A stretch of 64,000 nucleotides of DNA from positions 1-64,000 of the forward strand of contig JANQQT010000047.1 of the NCBI GenBank assembly GCA_028284925.1, given 5' to 3'. Both the position numbers and the translations under genes were made by a program. This stretch comes from Phycisphaeraceae bacterium. Lineage in GTDB: Bacteria; Planctomycetota; Phycisphaerae; Phycisphaerales; Zrk34. Each line of letters starts with the position of its first letter. Position 1 is the stretch's first letter. Positions 29,745 through 34,304 of the stretch are shown piece by piece. The notes below the pieces were generated by a model. That model searched no databases. It was not told the DNA's origin and was given only the letters and a program-made list of their open reading frames with translations.

Positions 29745-29981
29745 GATGATCCTTCCTGACAAAATACGGAAGCTGGAATGTCGGTGTGTTCATTGGGGAT
29801 AGCATGCAAAGACATACCGCTTTCTTGTGAAAATCCGATTGTACCAAATTTGCATACGCCGCGACGGTCAACGATCGATGCCTGCGCTGAAGGCGGGATC
29901 TGTGGATATACGGTATGATGAGAACATTGCATTCAGGAAAAGTAGAACCGTAAATTCGGATAGTAAAAGCTGAGGTACACT

Positions 29982-31589
29982 ATGAATGATCAAGAGAAAT
30001 TTGGGTTTGATTTCGAATTAGGGAAGGCAGTAGCAGGTGATGCGGTTAGACGTGAAGAAATACCCATGATGATCCTGTTGATGGGGGATTTCTCTGGACG
30101 AGCGAACCGGGGGATTTGTGAGGTGGGGAATACACTGGCGGAGCAGCGTGCCGTTTACATTGACGTCGATAATTTTGAAGAAGTGATGGGAAGAATGAGA
30201 CCAACGATCGATGTGCAGGTGACGGAAGATAAGAGTGAAGGAATGCGACTAGCTTTTGAAGAGATGGAGGATTTTGACCCGGATACGCTCTACCGCAAAT
30301 TAGATATTTTTGCAAGGTTGCGTGAGCAACGAAAGCGACTAAAGGATGCTTCGACATTCGCGGAAGCCGCCGCGGAAATGCGGGAATGGGCGTCCATGAG
30401 CGAGGAAACATTTGGCGTAAAAGAAGCGACACAAACAATGAAACAAGTCGAACCAACGAGAAAAGTCGATAAGGACGAAGACGAGGAAGAGAATGTATTT
30501 CAACGTTTGTTGGGGCAATCGGCGGGCGGCAGCATAGATACAACGAAAACGGGAAACACGGGCCACGCTCAAACACCAAAAGGTTCGATCGACATTAATC
30601 GACTGATTAAACAGATCGTGGGTGAGCACTTCGTACCGGCGCCGGATCCACAGATGGATCAGTATGTTTCTGCGGTGGATAATGCAATTGCGGATCAAAT
30701 GCGACGGATTCTGCGTGATGAGAGCTTCTCTGAATTGGAAGCGACATGGCGGAGCGTGTGGAATGTGGTTACGAATGTGGAAACAGATGAATCGCTCAAG
30801 GTCTTTCTTCTCGATATATCAAAGGAAGAATTGCTTGCCAACGTGGGTGAGGCGTTGGATGACTTAACCAGAGCCGGTATTTTTCGATTGCTGGTTGGGC
30901 AAACAGTCAATGTGCCTGGAGCTGATCAATGGTCCGTATTCGCAGGTAATTATATGTTTGGCCCGGATGCAACGGATGTAGCGCTACTCGCATCGCTCGG
31001 AATGATGGCAGCGGCAGCTGGCGCGTGTTTTATTGCGGATGGTAGCCCTGCATTTGCGGGATTGGAATCATTTGCGGACTCAGGTGATTCGACGCTTTGG
31101 CCGGGCCTGAGTGGTGAAGCGAACGAACGCTGGATGTCACTGAGAGAAAGTGCTGTGGCCAAGTACATCGGGTTGATTGGACCGCGTGTGATGATGAGAT
31201 TGCCGTATTCTCCTGAGACCGACGAGGTAGACGCGTTCGAATTTCGCGAGCTTGCCTCCGAGGTCGGGCACGAGGGTTATGTGTGGGGATCGGCGGCGTT
31301 TGGCTTGGTAAGGCTTTTGGCGAAAGGGTTTATGACAAAAGGTTGGAAAATGCGCCCGGGCGATGAGCCAATGCTGGACGGGCTGCCCGCACATATCATC
31401 ACCGAAGAAAACGAACAGACAATGTATCCGCCAACGGAGGTGTATCTCACGGATCGATCAGCCGAGGCGCTGTCGAAAGCGGGAATATCACCCTTGATGA
31501 GTTATATGGATAGACCGGCGGCAAGGTTGACACGGTATCATTCTATAGCCAACCCCGACGTTGCGCTCAGCGGACCTTGGGGAAACTAA
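29982..31589 (+). CDS. Fused type VI secretion contractile sheath protein (TssB-TssC fusion)
   Basis: This 535-residue protein joins the two subunits of the T6SS sheath. Residues about 25-150 match TssB/VipA: MMILLMGDFSGR, then VDNFEEVMGRMRP and the EMEDFDPDTLYRKL block. A polar linker (about 150-205) follows. Residues about 205-530 match TssC/VipB: LEATWRSVWNVV, VFLLDISKEEL, LRESAVAKYIGLIGPRVMMR, GYVWGSAAFGL and the late PPTEVYLTDRSAEALS block. In standard systems these are two proteins that interlock to build the contractile tube. GAGGT lies 5-6 nt before the ATG. No baseplate, tube (Hcp), spike or ClpV gene is in the window. The gene ends 8 nt from the convergent sigma-partner gene. Confidence 0.85.
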   Translation: MNDQEKFGFDFELGKAVAGDAVRREEIPMMILLMGDFSGRANRGICEVGNTLAEQRAVYIDVDNFEEVMGRMRPTIDVQVTEDKSEGMRLAFEEMEDFDPDTLYRKLDIFARLREQRKRLKDASTFAEAAAEMREWASMSEETFGVKEATQTMKQVEPTRKVDKDEDEEENVFQRLLGQSAGGSIDTTKTGNTGHAQTPKGSIDINRLIKQIVGEHFVPAPDPQMDQYVSAVDNAIADQMRRILRDESFSELEATWRSVWNVVTNVETDESLKVFLLDISKEELLANVGEALDDLTRAGIFRLLVGQTVNVPGADQWSVFAGNYMFGPDATDVALLASLGMMAAAAGACFIADGSPAFAGLESFADSGDSTLWPGLSGEANERWMSLRESAVAKYIGLIGPRVMMRLPYSPETDEVDAFEFRELASEVGHEGYVWGSAAFGLVRLLAKGFMTKGWKMRPGDEPMLDGLPAHIITEENEQTMYPPTEVYLTDRSAEALSKAGISPLMSYMDRPAARLTRYHSIANPDVALSGPWGN

Positions 31590-31597
31590 AGTTGGAG

Positions 31598-33760
31598 TTA
31601 CTTTGATTTTTCCTTCGAAAGTAGCGACCGGATCTCATTGACAAGACTCAATAGCTTGAGTTTTCTTGGCGTAGATGGTTTGTCATAAACGTAGAACCCT
31701 GTTGGTGCATTATTCTCGAAGTTAATCGTGTTTAGAAGATGAATCACAGGATCAAGATCAGCGGGCAAAGGCTTGTCTGATTTCAGAACGTGACCGATAG
31801 ATGCGGCAGCGACTGCGAGGCGAGTAGCGGTTGAGGTAGATTGAACTGGTTGAGCATCATGATGAATATGATGCGCTAATGCCCCTGATTGATCTGAGTG
31901 GTAAGAAGTTCGAACGGACAACCACGCTGTCGCATGGTTAGACAATCCCGACCGCTTATTTCCACCATGATTTGCATTTCCCTTAATACCATTGTTATTC
32001 GAAACCTTACCGTACGCGACGGCATCCGAATTCGTGGGAATAACCTCGTATAATAGTGTGACTGTGTCGAGCGAGTGACTAATTAAGGCACTCTCCGGAA
32101 TCGCGGCCAGCTTTCTTCGAAATTCTTCGATGTTTGGGTGTCGCTCGAATCCAATGACCCGATAAGACTTCACAAACCTGGGGTTTATTTTTACGAAAAT
32201 GGACAGTTTTTGAATGGGCTGAGCAAGGTGATTATCACTGAGCGTAATACGAACAAGTCGATTGGTGGGCGACCAGGGTGAAAGTAACATTTCCGAATCG
32301 ACTCGAATGGGAGAACTGGACTCGGCTTGCGAAACGCGCGGCAAATTCACTGCATTGATCAGTGAAACAACATCAATTTGGTTTGGGTGAGGCTTCCGGC
32401 CTCGCCTGATCAACGAGGTAATCAATTCAAGATTGCCCGTGGGCACAATAAGAAGCGGTATATGACTTGAATTCTTACCAATCTTCTGAAACGGACTGAG
32501 TGGCCTTATCCCCTTGAAAGTGATCTGTTGTGGAACATTAATACTTTCGACTCTGGAGTCTGCCTTCCCGCTATCTGGACGGCGTAGGGTCTTTGCGTCC
32601 TCTATCGATTGACTGGCTGAAGTGCCGCCCTTTTTTTTCCCTTCGTGATGCCCTCGACGCACAGGTTGATTTGAACGAGAGCGGAATGCACCCTTGTCAG
32701 GATCCGACTTTGCAGGGGTTGCGCGCCGTTTCTCCGGAACCGGCTTCTTAACCCCTTGCTTTCCGATATTGTGTTGGAGCTCGGTTCCTTTTTTATCTGA
32801 AGAGTGGTCTTTTGCCAGATGATTCATTTGACTTGGCTTCGACTCACTCTTACGAAGAAGATGCGCGAATGAAGCAAGGGTTCGAACCGCCGGCTGAGAT
32901 CGCCGAAGCTGGTTTGAAGACTCATTTCCCTTTGAACCGGCAGTTTTCAGTGACTTAGCCGAGAGAGGACTTGGTGATGGGGATGTGGCAACAGAAGAAG
33001 GTTCGGGCTTACCGGGCAATGCTTTTGTGAGATCTCGTTTCTTGGCTTGTGCCTGAGGCTTTTTGTCCTGTTGATCACGCACCAAATGTTTCTTGGGCGA
33101 AAGAGGATCGGCCTTGGGATCTGGTAATTTTCCGCCTGCGGCTTTTCGCATGGCAGAACCCGCAGCCCTCTTGACAAAATTCGCTCTCGCCGATTCAGAC
33201 TTCTTATCTAATTTCGTAGACGCCGACTTAGCATCAGTTGACCGTTTTAGCTCCTTTCGTAATCCTGCATGGTTATCGTCCCGACTCCGGGATTGGGCCT
33301 GGAGATCATCCATATCGACCTCATCTTCATCGGATTCCGTATTTCTGAGAGGCGAAGGAGGCTTATGTTCGGGGTCTCCAAATTCATGTGTGGCAACGGT
33401 ACGGGAGTTTCCGGAATCAGACTCATGGCCGATGAAGAGAAACAGACTGACGCCGAGTGCGATTGCAGCGGCGGTAGCAAGAGGGAGAAAAGACGCTATT
33501 TGCCAGCCATCATGCACCGGCGCATATCGATCATCAATACGAGCATAGATTTCGTCGCGTTGGTCCGCAGACAGAGATGGACCTTGTTCCTCTTGAAGCT
33601 GTTTGGATAGATCGCCGGCCAATGACTGAATAAGTTCAACTTGTTTTCTAGCATCTTCGTTGGAGGCAATCATGTCCTCAACTTCGTCGCGATGCTCCTG
33701 ATCTATTTCGCCAAGTGCAAAGTCGGTCAGTTTTTGATCTTCTTTAGGATCGTAGGGCAT
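31598..33760 (-). CDS. Membrane protein with anti-sigma-like N-terminus and YfbK-like flanks lacking the VWA core
   Basis: This 720-residue single-pass protein lies directly downstream of an ECF sigma gene (16 nt). Residues 1-80 are acidic and cytoplasmic, with an anti-sigma-like start (LTDFALGEIDQEHRDEVE). A helix at about 87-110 crosses the membrane. A long basic, Ser/Lys/Pro-rich linker runs to about residue 410. Residues about 415-510 resemble the region that precedes the VWA domain in YfbK-type proteins (SLIRRGRKPHPNQIDVVSLIN, shortened here to its conserved part, and SPWSPTNRLVRITL). Residues about 515-580 resemble the region after it (INPRFVKSYRVIGFERH, TVTLLYEVIP). Only about a dozen residues separate them, so the metal-binding VWA fold is missing. 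It probably controls the sigma factor; this rests on position and the N-terminus only. Confidence 0.7.
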   Translation of the reverse strand: MPYDPKEDQKLTDFALGEIDQEHRDEVEDMIASNEDARKQVELIQSLAGDLSKQLQEEQGPSLSADQRDEIYARIDDRYAPVHDGWQIASFLPLATAAAIALGVSLFLFIGHESDSGNSRTVATHEFGDPEHKPPSPLRNTESDEDEVDMDDLQAQSRSRDDNHAGLRKELKRSTDAKSASTKLDKKSESARANFVKRAAGSAMRKAAGGKLPDPKADPLSPKKHLVRDQQDKKPQAQAKKRDLTKALPGKPEPSSVATSPSPSPLSAKSLKTAGSKGNESSNQLRRSQPAVRTLASFAHLLRKSESKPSQMNHLAKDHSSDKKGTELQHNIGKQGVKKPVPEKRRATPAKSDPDKGAFRSRSNQPVRRGHHEGKKKGGTSASQSIEDAKTLRRPDSGKADSRVESINVPQQITFKGIRPLSPFQKIGKNSSHIPLLIVPTGNLELITSLIRRGRKPHPNQIDVVSLINAVNLPRVSQAESSSPIRVDSEMLLSPWSPTNRLVRITLSDNHLAQPIQKLSIFVKINPRFVKSYRVIGFERHPNIEEFRRKLAAIPESALISHSLDTVTLLYEVIPTNSDAVAYGKVSNNNGIKGNANHGGNKRSGLSNHATAWLSVRTSYHSDQSGALAHHIHHDAQPVQSTSTATRLAVAAASIGHVLKSDKPLPADLDPVIHLLNTINFENNAPTGFYVYDKPSTPRKLKLLSLVNEIRSLLSKEKSK

Positions 33761-33776
33761 GGTCTATGCAGCCTCT

Positions 33777-34304
33777 TCATGTTCTTGTCGCGGAGACAGG
33801 ATCTGTTACAAGTTTCTTTCTGAGAGATTTAAGCGCGGCATGAATGAGAAAGCCGACGTTGGATACGCTTTGGTCAGTGATCTTGCTAATCTGACGATAC
33901 GAGAGTCCCTGTTGGAATTTGAGTCGGATAACTTCCTGCTGCTTGGGAGGCAGTGTGTCGATGGCGTCAATCGCACGGGTTTGGGATTCATTGTTTTCAA
34001 TGAGGTCATGGGGTTGATCCTCGGTGCTCTGATCATTGGCAAGTGTGACGTCGCTAAGCTGTGTCATGCGCTTTTCCTTGCGAAGCACATCGAGGGCGCG
34101 ATTTCGACACACAGTGTATAGCCATTCGACAAGGTGACCCTGAATGTCTTCCTTGTTCTGATTGCAGAGTTTAAGGAAGGTATCCTGAACGATGTCGGCG
34201 GCCCGCTGTGGATCCCGTATAAAGCGCGCGGCATATTGCATCAGGCGGCGCTCATGACGCTCCACCGCTTCACGGATCCACTGACCTCCGTGTTCATCGG
34301 TCAC
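33777..34304 (-). CDS. ECF-type RNA polymerase sigma factor
   Basis: This 175-residue sigma-70 family factor has region 2 (QYAARFIRDPQRAADIVQDTFLKL) and region 4 (LPPKQQEVIRLKFQQGLSY followed by RQISKITDQSVSNVGFLIHAALKSLRKKL), with no region 1 or 3. It starts with GTG, and GGAG lies 9 nt upstream. A strong hairpin in the leader ends 2-3 nt before that ribosome-binding site. The next gene, 16 nt downstream, encodes its likely membrane-bound partner. The stimulus and regulon cannot be told from the window. Confidence 0.92.
   Translation of the reverse strand: MTDEHGGQWIREAVERHERRLMQYAARFIRDPQRAADIVQDTFLKLCNQNKEDIQGHLVEWLYTVCRNRALDVLRKEKRMTQLSDVTLANDQSTEDQPHDLIENNESQTRAIDAIDTLPPKQQEVIRLKFQQGLSYRQISKITDQSVSNVGFLIHAALKSLRKKLVTDPVSATRT

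Follow-up and report, generated by a model that had tools for sequence, protein, structure and literature searches.

We identified a protein that joins TssB to the N-terminal domain of TssC, the T6SS sheath proteins, in a single chain that stops where the gp25-like C-terminal domain of TssC would start. It is encoded at positions 29982-31589 (+) of the window, the 64,000-nucleotide stretch of a Phycisphaeraceae genome contig analyzed here (GCA_028284925.1, JANQQT010000047.1). Related fusions make up a family that accompanies ordinary T6SSs in many phyla and is apparently undescribed; in open-licence papers we found no description of a TssB-TssC fusion or of a truncated sheath paralog. The family itself is well supported, and we infer its exact role. 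We propose, with a probability of roughly 0.45, that the fusion is a non-polymerizing, 'one-handed' sheath paralog that docks on an acceptor, serves as a cap, gate or adaptor at one sheath end, and is removed or recycled by ClpV. How the growth of the T6SS sheath ends or is gated is understood only in part, and which proteins make up the distal sheath end was unclear from the V. cholerae reconstruction (PMC5813253). As a conserved sheath paralog from which just one of the interlocking parts is missing, and which occurs in many environmental T6SSs, the fusion offers a ready test case.

The gene is a single open frame of 535 aa, free of internal stops in the window sequence, and all of its parts lie on the + strand. 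An earlier sequence-only reading had described a one-frame TssB-TssC fusion with a polar linker and a good ribosome-binding site, and the observation is confirmed. A GAGG, the probable ribosome-binding site, is read directly from the sequence at 29972-29975, 6 nt upstream of the ATG. Close to the N-terminus, the alternating-hydrophobic segment KFGFDFEL (29997-30020) is, from its pattern, a candidate TssB-type donor strand. The TssB/VipA domain (residues 18-135, 30033-30386; Pfam, AlphaFold model) follows and contains an amphipathic helix, residues 108-121, the counterpart of the helix by which TssB binds TssC (PMC3840085). The acidic/polar linker (residues 153-204, 30438-30593) is largely predicted to be disordered in the AlphaFold model and carries VFQRLLGQ (residues 172-179, 30495-30518), of the 'FxxLL' class by the definition of PMC4239648, at the site of the N-terminal ClpV-recognition helix of TssC. 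Next comes the TssC/VipB N-terminal domain (residues 226-518, 30657-31535; Pfam, PDB, Foldseek), with no gp25-like C-terminal domain after it. The chain ends in a family-specific C-terminus (...SI...LSGPWGN, 31536-31586), in which W533 is nearly invariant in the family alignments. The GC content of the gene, 50.8%, equals that of the window, and we rejected a foreign composition.

The sequence-only reading had proposed profile searches with the VipA and VipB families, and both gave matches above the Pfam cut-offs: T6SS_VipA (TssB, PF05591) at residues 18-135, with 68 bits against a cut-off of 24 (E 9e-19), and VipB (TssC N-terminal, PF05943) at residues 226-518, with 203 bits against 27 (E 9e-60). 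The TssB part, which that reading took to be short, spans positions 17-135 of the 155-position model; the missing part is the C-terminal domain of TssC. PF18945, which represents this gp25-like domain, was not found in the window protein by the Pfam scan. The NCBIfam equivalogs scored below their cut-offs, TIGR03355 (TssC) at 194 bits against 271.5, with the match stopping at position 353 of 473, and TIGR03358 (TssB) at 62 bits against 97.25. Sequence matches in the PDB were nearly all to TssC and TssB chains, and the alignments stop near residue 350 in chains of 461-494 residues. AlphaFold, given a 62-row family alignment, produced a confident model (pLDDT 86.6, pTM 0.83), in which the N-terminus and linker residues 153-202 account for most of the low-confidence part; this model, TIGR03355 and the PDB alignments place the end of the protein at the point where the gp25-like domain would start. 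A Foldseek search of the PDB gave nine significant matches, every one a T6SS TssC chain (best 5n8n_B, 5e-24). We rejected a viral origin, since a scan of viral contigs with the window protein gave no relative and the significant Foldseek matches were all T6SS sheath chains.

The truncation is shared across the family. Both VipA and VipB were found in 62 of 62 sampled relatives and PF18945 in 0 of 62 (Pfam scan). Canonical TssC proteins from the same loci extend 121-131 aa past the shared domain, whereas most fusions stop 0-11 aa past it, the exceptions being members with acidic tails. TssC consists of an N-domain that is sufficient for TssB binding and a separate C-domain (PMC3840085). With the C-domain and its strand missing, the fusion thus retains the heterodimer without the acceptor and without one of the two donor strands. 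Of 66 fusions, 48 show the alternating-hydrophobic pattern at the N-terminus, whereas shuffled sequences would give 12, and the position of this segment resembles that of the canonical TssB N-terminal strand; by pattern and position, it may be the counterpart of the VipA donor strand. On the earlier question of whether the handshake strands are kept, the gp25-like domain and the C-terminal strand are absent, and a candidate N-terminal strand is probably kept.

A single scan of genome contigs, with a 4-row alignment as the query, returned 149 fusion loci. The best 80 of the 149 fall in Pseudomonadota (alpha, beta and gamma), Thermodesulfobacteriota, Myxococcota, Nitrospirota, Acidobacteriota, Gemmatimonadota, Verrucomicrobiota, Chloroflexota and Planctomycetota, although several of these carriers are MAGs whose phylum labels may be imprecise. 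Carriers include Candidatus Brocadia pituitae, Massilia, Motiliproteus, Panacagrimonas, Desulfosarcina and Pseudovibrio, and the fusion is also found on Rhodobacterales plasmids. The association with T6SS is one of co-occurrence and, in some relatives, of location inside T6SS clusters. TssF was found in 47 of 50 carrier genomes and the canonical TssC C-domain in 45 of 50. Among 18 planctomycete test genomes, TssK and TssF were present in all 15 fusion carriers and absent from the three non-carriers. Core T6SS genes lie nearby, within the sequence stretch covered, in 40 of the 73 loci with a recognized fusion, and none lies nearby in the other 33. Across these scored loci, ClpV is at most four genes upstream of the fusion in 15 and VgrG at most three genes downstream in 17. 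Gene order varies between lineages. In Desulfobacterota and Nitrospirota it is typically tssB tssC hcp tssE tssF tssG clpV, then small genes, the fusion and vgrG, with Brocadia lacking the vgrG; in Acidobacteria the fusion comes before tssB tssC hcp; and in Pseudovibrio the order is clpV, an ion transporter, fusion, vgrG. DUF4123 or PAAR genes come after the fusion-vgrG pair in several cases, and tssA lies beside the fusion in several systems. No conserved operon partner of the unlinked copies emerged, the upstream genes in four genomes (G516, G525, G743, G707) being mutually dissimilar. Unlinked fusions of Pyrinomonadaceae/Blastocatellia (L088, L090, L105, L106, L108, L130) occupy one conserved site, just ahead of a gidA-like gene, with parA and parB beyond it where the stretch is long enough.

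In an unrooted TssC-core tree, from which L099 with its fusion broken in frame was excluded, a branch with an SH-aLRT of 100 splits canonical TssC, tandem second copies included, from all fusions. A first tree that included L099, placed inside the fusions, gave the TssC clade the same support (SH-aLRT 100), with two fusions adjoining this clade on a weak branch. The separate fusion branch is consistent with one origin of the fusion. The window protein belongs to a clade (support 98-99) of gamma- and betaproteobacterial members with one planctomycete, and this mixture suggests horizontal spread of the fusion.

The linker motif connects the fusion to a class of ClpV. The N-terminal motif of TssC comes in two classes, LLDEII and EFASLL, which are found with different types of ClpV (PMC4239648). 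The motif in the fusion linker occupies the same place. In each of the 47 pairs compared, the fusion and the canonical TssC fell in the same class, 30 pairs in one class and 17 in the other, a few borderline rows having been assigned by eye. Massilia and Pseudovibrio hold both classes, and there the fusion agrees with the cluster on its own contig. About three class switches are all that the fusion tree shows, so the 47 agreements represent few independent events and the Fisher value of 4e-13 is too strong. The FxxLL form of the window protein also occurs in the canonical TssC of two genomes of the same order, G384 and G368.

We propose that the fusion acts as a T6SS accessory protein, a pre-fused TssB/TssC heterodimer that retains the middle and outer layers of the sheath protomer and, probably, the N-terminal donor strand of TssB. 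The inner gp25-like domain, which is the acceptor for the next ring, and the C-terminal donor strand of TssC have been lost, so the fusion would not be an ordinary repeating sheath subunit. On the favored reading it would dock 'one-handed', via the N-terminal strand and the outer surfaces, on the last sheath ring or on the gp25-like baseplate protein TssE. Once docked, it would give the following ring no acceptor and could cap, gate or adapt one end of the sheath-tube, and the ClpV that recycles the sheath may also remove or recycle the fusion. Within this role, we infer the donor-strand docking, the end that is involved and the removal by ClpV. A role as a cap would be partly redundant, since proteins of the TssA/TagA type take part in assembling the sheath, in some cases at its distal end (PMC5813253, PMC6745524), and tssA neighbors the fusion in the systems mentioned above. 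These proteins resemble the fusion in its proposed role but belong to an unrelated family with a conserved TssA-type N-terminal domain (PMC6745524).

More tentatively, the family may be an unrecognized, widespread T6SS component, in which a protomer without the handshake acceptor serves as a chain terminator or gate, or as one part of a split protomer with TssE, and is stripped by ClpV. TssE, a gp25-like baseplate wedge protein and sheath initiator, is a partial sheath protomer as is the fusion; it resembles the inner domain alone, whereas the fusion has only the other layers and is its complement (relation from PMC4632598, PMC5813253). As a split protomer, the fusion and TssE together would form a ring between the baseplate and the sheath. 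In Rhodobacterales, the fusion would have been elaborated into a TssB-acidic repeat-TssB-TssC scaffold.

Gene order appears compatible with a role at the sheath end, on the baseplate side or in spike loading alike, and the placement next to vgrG would suit a spike-side role equally well. As an adaptor on that side, the fusion would be part of a VgrG/PAAR/effector-loading module and contribute to the assembly of one specific VgrG baseplate, and the TssE ring could stay masked by the fusion up to the time of spike loading. VgrG often follows the fusion directly at the 17 loci where it is within three genes downstream, with DUF4123 or PAAR next in several. There is also a precedent in TvpC of Serratia, a VgrG-like accessory protein that forms a pre-complex (PMC13373197). 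Like the fusion, TvpC is a structural paralog of a core T6SS component and has no polymerization domain; TvpC derives from VgrG, while the fusion derives from the sheath. However, the Acidobacteria fusion directly precedes tssB-tssC-hcp instead, 33 of the 73 loci have no core T6SS gene nearby, and the matching of the ClpV class points toward the sheath. We consider a spike-side adaptor rather unlikely.

The tails of some members bear on a further alternative. Several fusions have C-terminal acidic tails with the motif MDPEL(A/E)ALL (L037 9425-11377, L042 9530-11500, L123 7827-9812), and the four copies in G291 (L042) resemble a multivalent short binding motif. Two Rhodobacterales plasmids, L134 (12656-17728) and L135 (13979-17644), have open frames of 1690 and 1221 aa that encode TssB, a long acidic repetitive linker, a second TssB, TssC(N) and an acidic tail; the deposited annotation of both genes begins inside the frame, past the first TssB. 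The 1690-aa chain is from Leisingera. Such tails, together with the matched ClpV-recognition class and the free relocation of the gene, would suit a soluble regulator that, acting as a decoy or chaperone, binds TssB, TssC or ClpV in free form and tunes the sheath pool and its recycling, with the LDDLL-type acidic tails as multivalent docking sites. Yet the tail is absent from most members, and a decoy would not require a complete, highly conserved heterodimer, which makes a regulator of this kind improbable.

The host of the window protein is a planctomycete MAG of 4.9 Mb in 311 contigs, 91.7% complete. The window holds planctomycete-type PSCyt1, PSD1/DUF1553 and DUF1501 genes, glycosyltransferases, and pst/phoU-like genes recognized by sequence. 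As the sequence-only reading had noted, the fusion has no T6SS neighbors here: none of the scanned window proteins was recognized as a further T6SS component. The term 'orphan' fits the position of the gene but not the genome, which carries an otherwise ordinary T6SS on other contigs. There, tssK lies with tssL and tssM on C141, while C111 holds tssF, truncated at the start of the contig, together with tssG, clpV, vgrG and a DUF4123 gene. The genome-wide search which that reading had proposed thus recovered tssF, tssG, tssK, clpV and vgrG but neither hcp nor tssE. Canonical tssB and tssC were likewise not found in the assembled genome, where the fusion is the sole TssB and TssC recovered. On C111, vgrG directly follows clpV, and the slot that the fusion occupies in other phyla is empty. 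Host TssF, TssG, ClpV, TssK, TssL and TssM are nearest to those of the G384 and G368 systems. The cluster of G525, of the same order, reads tssA tssB tssC hcp tagJ tssE tssF tssG clpV vgrG. Since the tssB-tssC-hcp-tssE block precedes tssF in relatives and C111 starts inside tssF, the case that an assembly gap accounts for the absent canonical sheath genes is strong but not proven.

No close ortholog of the fusion was found in nine genomes of the family, among which the host is the only carrier, and the best relative of the window protein in the order is that of G707 (44%). G707 is a single 3.9-Mb contig with the fusion, in which BLAST found no TssC, and no relative of tssA/B/C/E/F/G, hcp, clpV or vgrG was found in about 160 kb around the fusion. 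The lone fusions of the host assembly and of G707 could be read as the sheath of a reduced contractile system that substitutes for separate tssB and tssC. The fusion has no interlocking domain, however, and in the host hcp and tssE are missing along with the sheath genes, at a contig end. Canonical TssC is nearly always present in fusion-carrying relatives, and we reject this substitution as very improbable. The sequence-only reading had offered two explanations. The first, a divergent contractile system whose genes are dispersed, is unsupported, since the fusion occurs alongside intact canonical systems in which tssB and tssC are separate; the second, a sheath protein recruited for another role, comes close to the evidence. 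A T6SS elsewhere combined with loss of core sheath strands, which that reading took as signs of a decayed copy, is nearly what we found, and the position is unlinked, but a decayed or accidentally fused copy without function has a negligible probability given the intact frames, host-like GC, single clade, and conserved residues and architecture in dozens of genomes from many phyla; the identical truncated architecture in 62 of 62 sampled relatives rules out decay for the family.

The closest known system is the TssB/TssC sheath protomer (VipA/VipB; PF05591, PF05943, PF18945). With it, the fusion shares the TssB fold, the TssC N-terminal fold, the TssC-binding TssB helix, the N-terminal strand pattern and the TssC-type ClpV-recognition motif. 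It differs in being one chain rather than two, in lacking the gp25-like C-terminal domain and the C-terminal linker strand, and in forming a separate clade whose members occur together with ordinary TssB and TssC. Tandem second TssC copies (for example in G307 and G072) are likewise second TssC-type paralogs in a genome but, unlike the fusion, keep the C-terminal region of about 121 aa, have no TssB part and lie inside the canonical TssC clade. In some planctomycete clusters such a copy, with its C-terminal region kept, directly follows the ordinary one (L053:10873-12483, L043:2903-4522).

In two Rhodobacterales plasmid records the fusion is annotated simply as 'contractile sheath large subunit' and accompanies a complete T6SS that has its own separate tssB and tssC. 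The fusion can mislead counts of tssC and tssC-based T6SS typing.

Two further observations concern neighboring genes. In the T6SS cluster of the host itself, vgrG and the DUF4123 adaptor are followed by two large genes (1003 and 370 aa; L049 9332-13508) that have no Pfam match and possibly encode an effector and its partner. In the window, the stretch 31598-34304 (-) holds a gene like an ECF-type sigma factor and then one for a protein of 720 aa whose C-terminal domain is of the YfbK type, the latter gene ending, on the opposite strand, 9 nt from the fusion gene.
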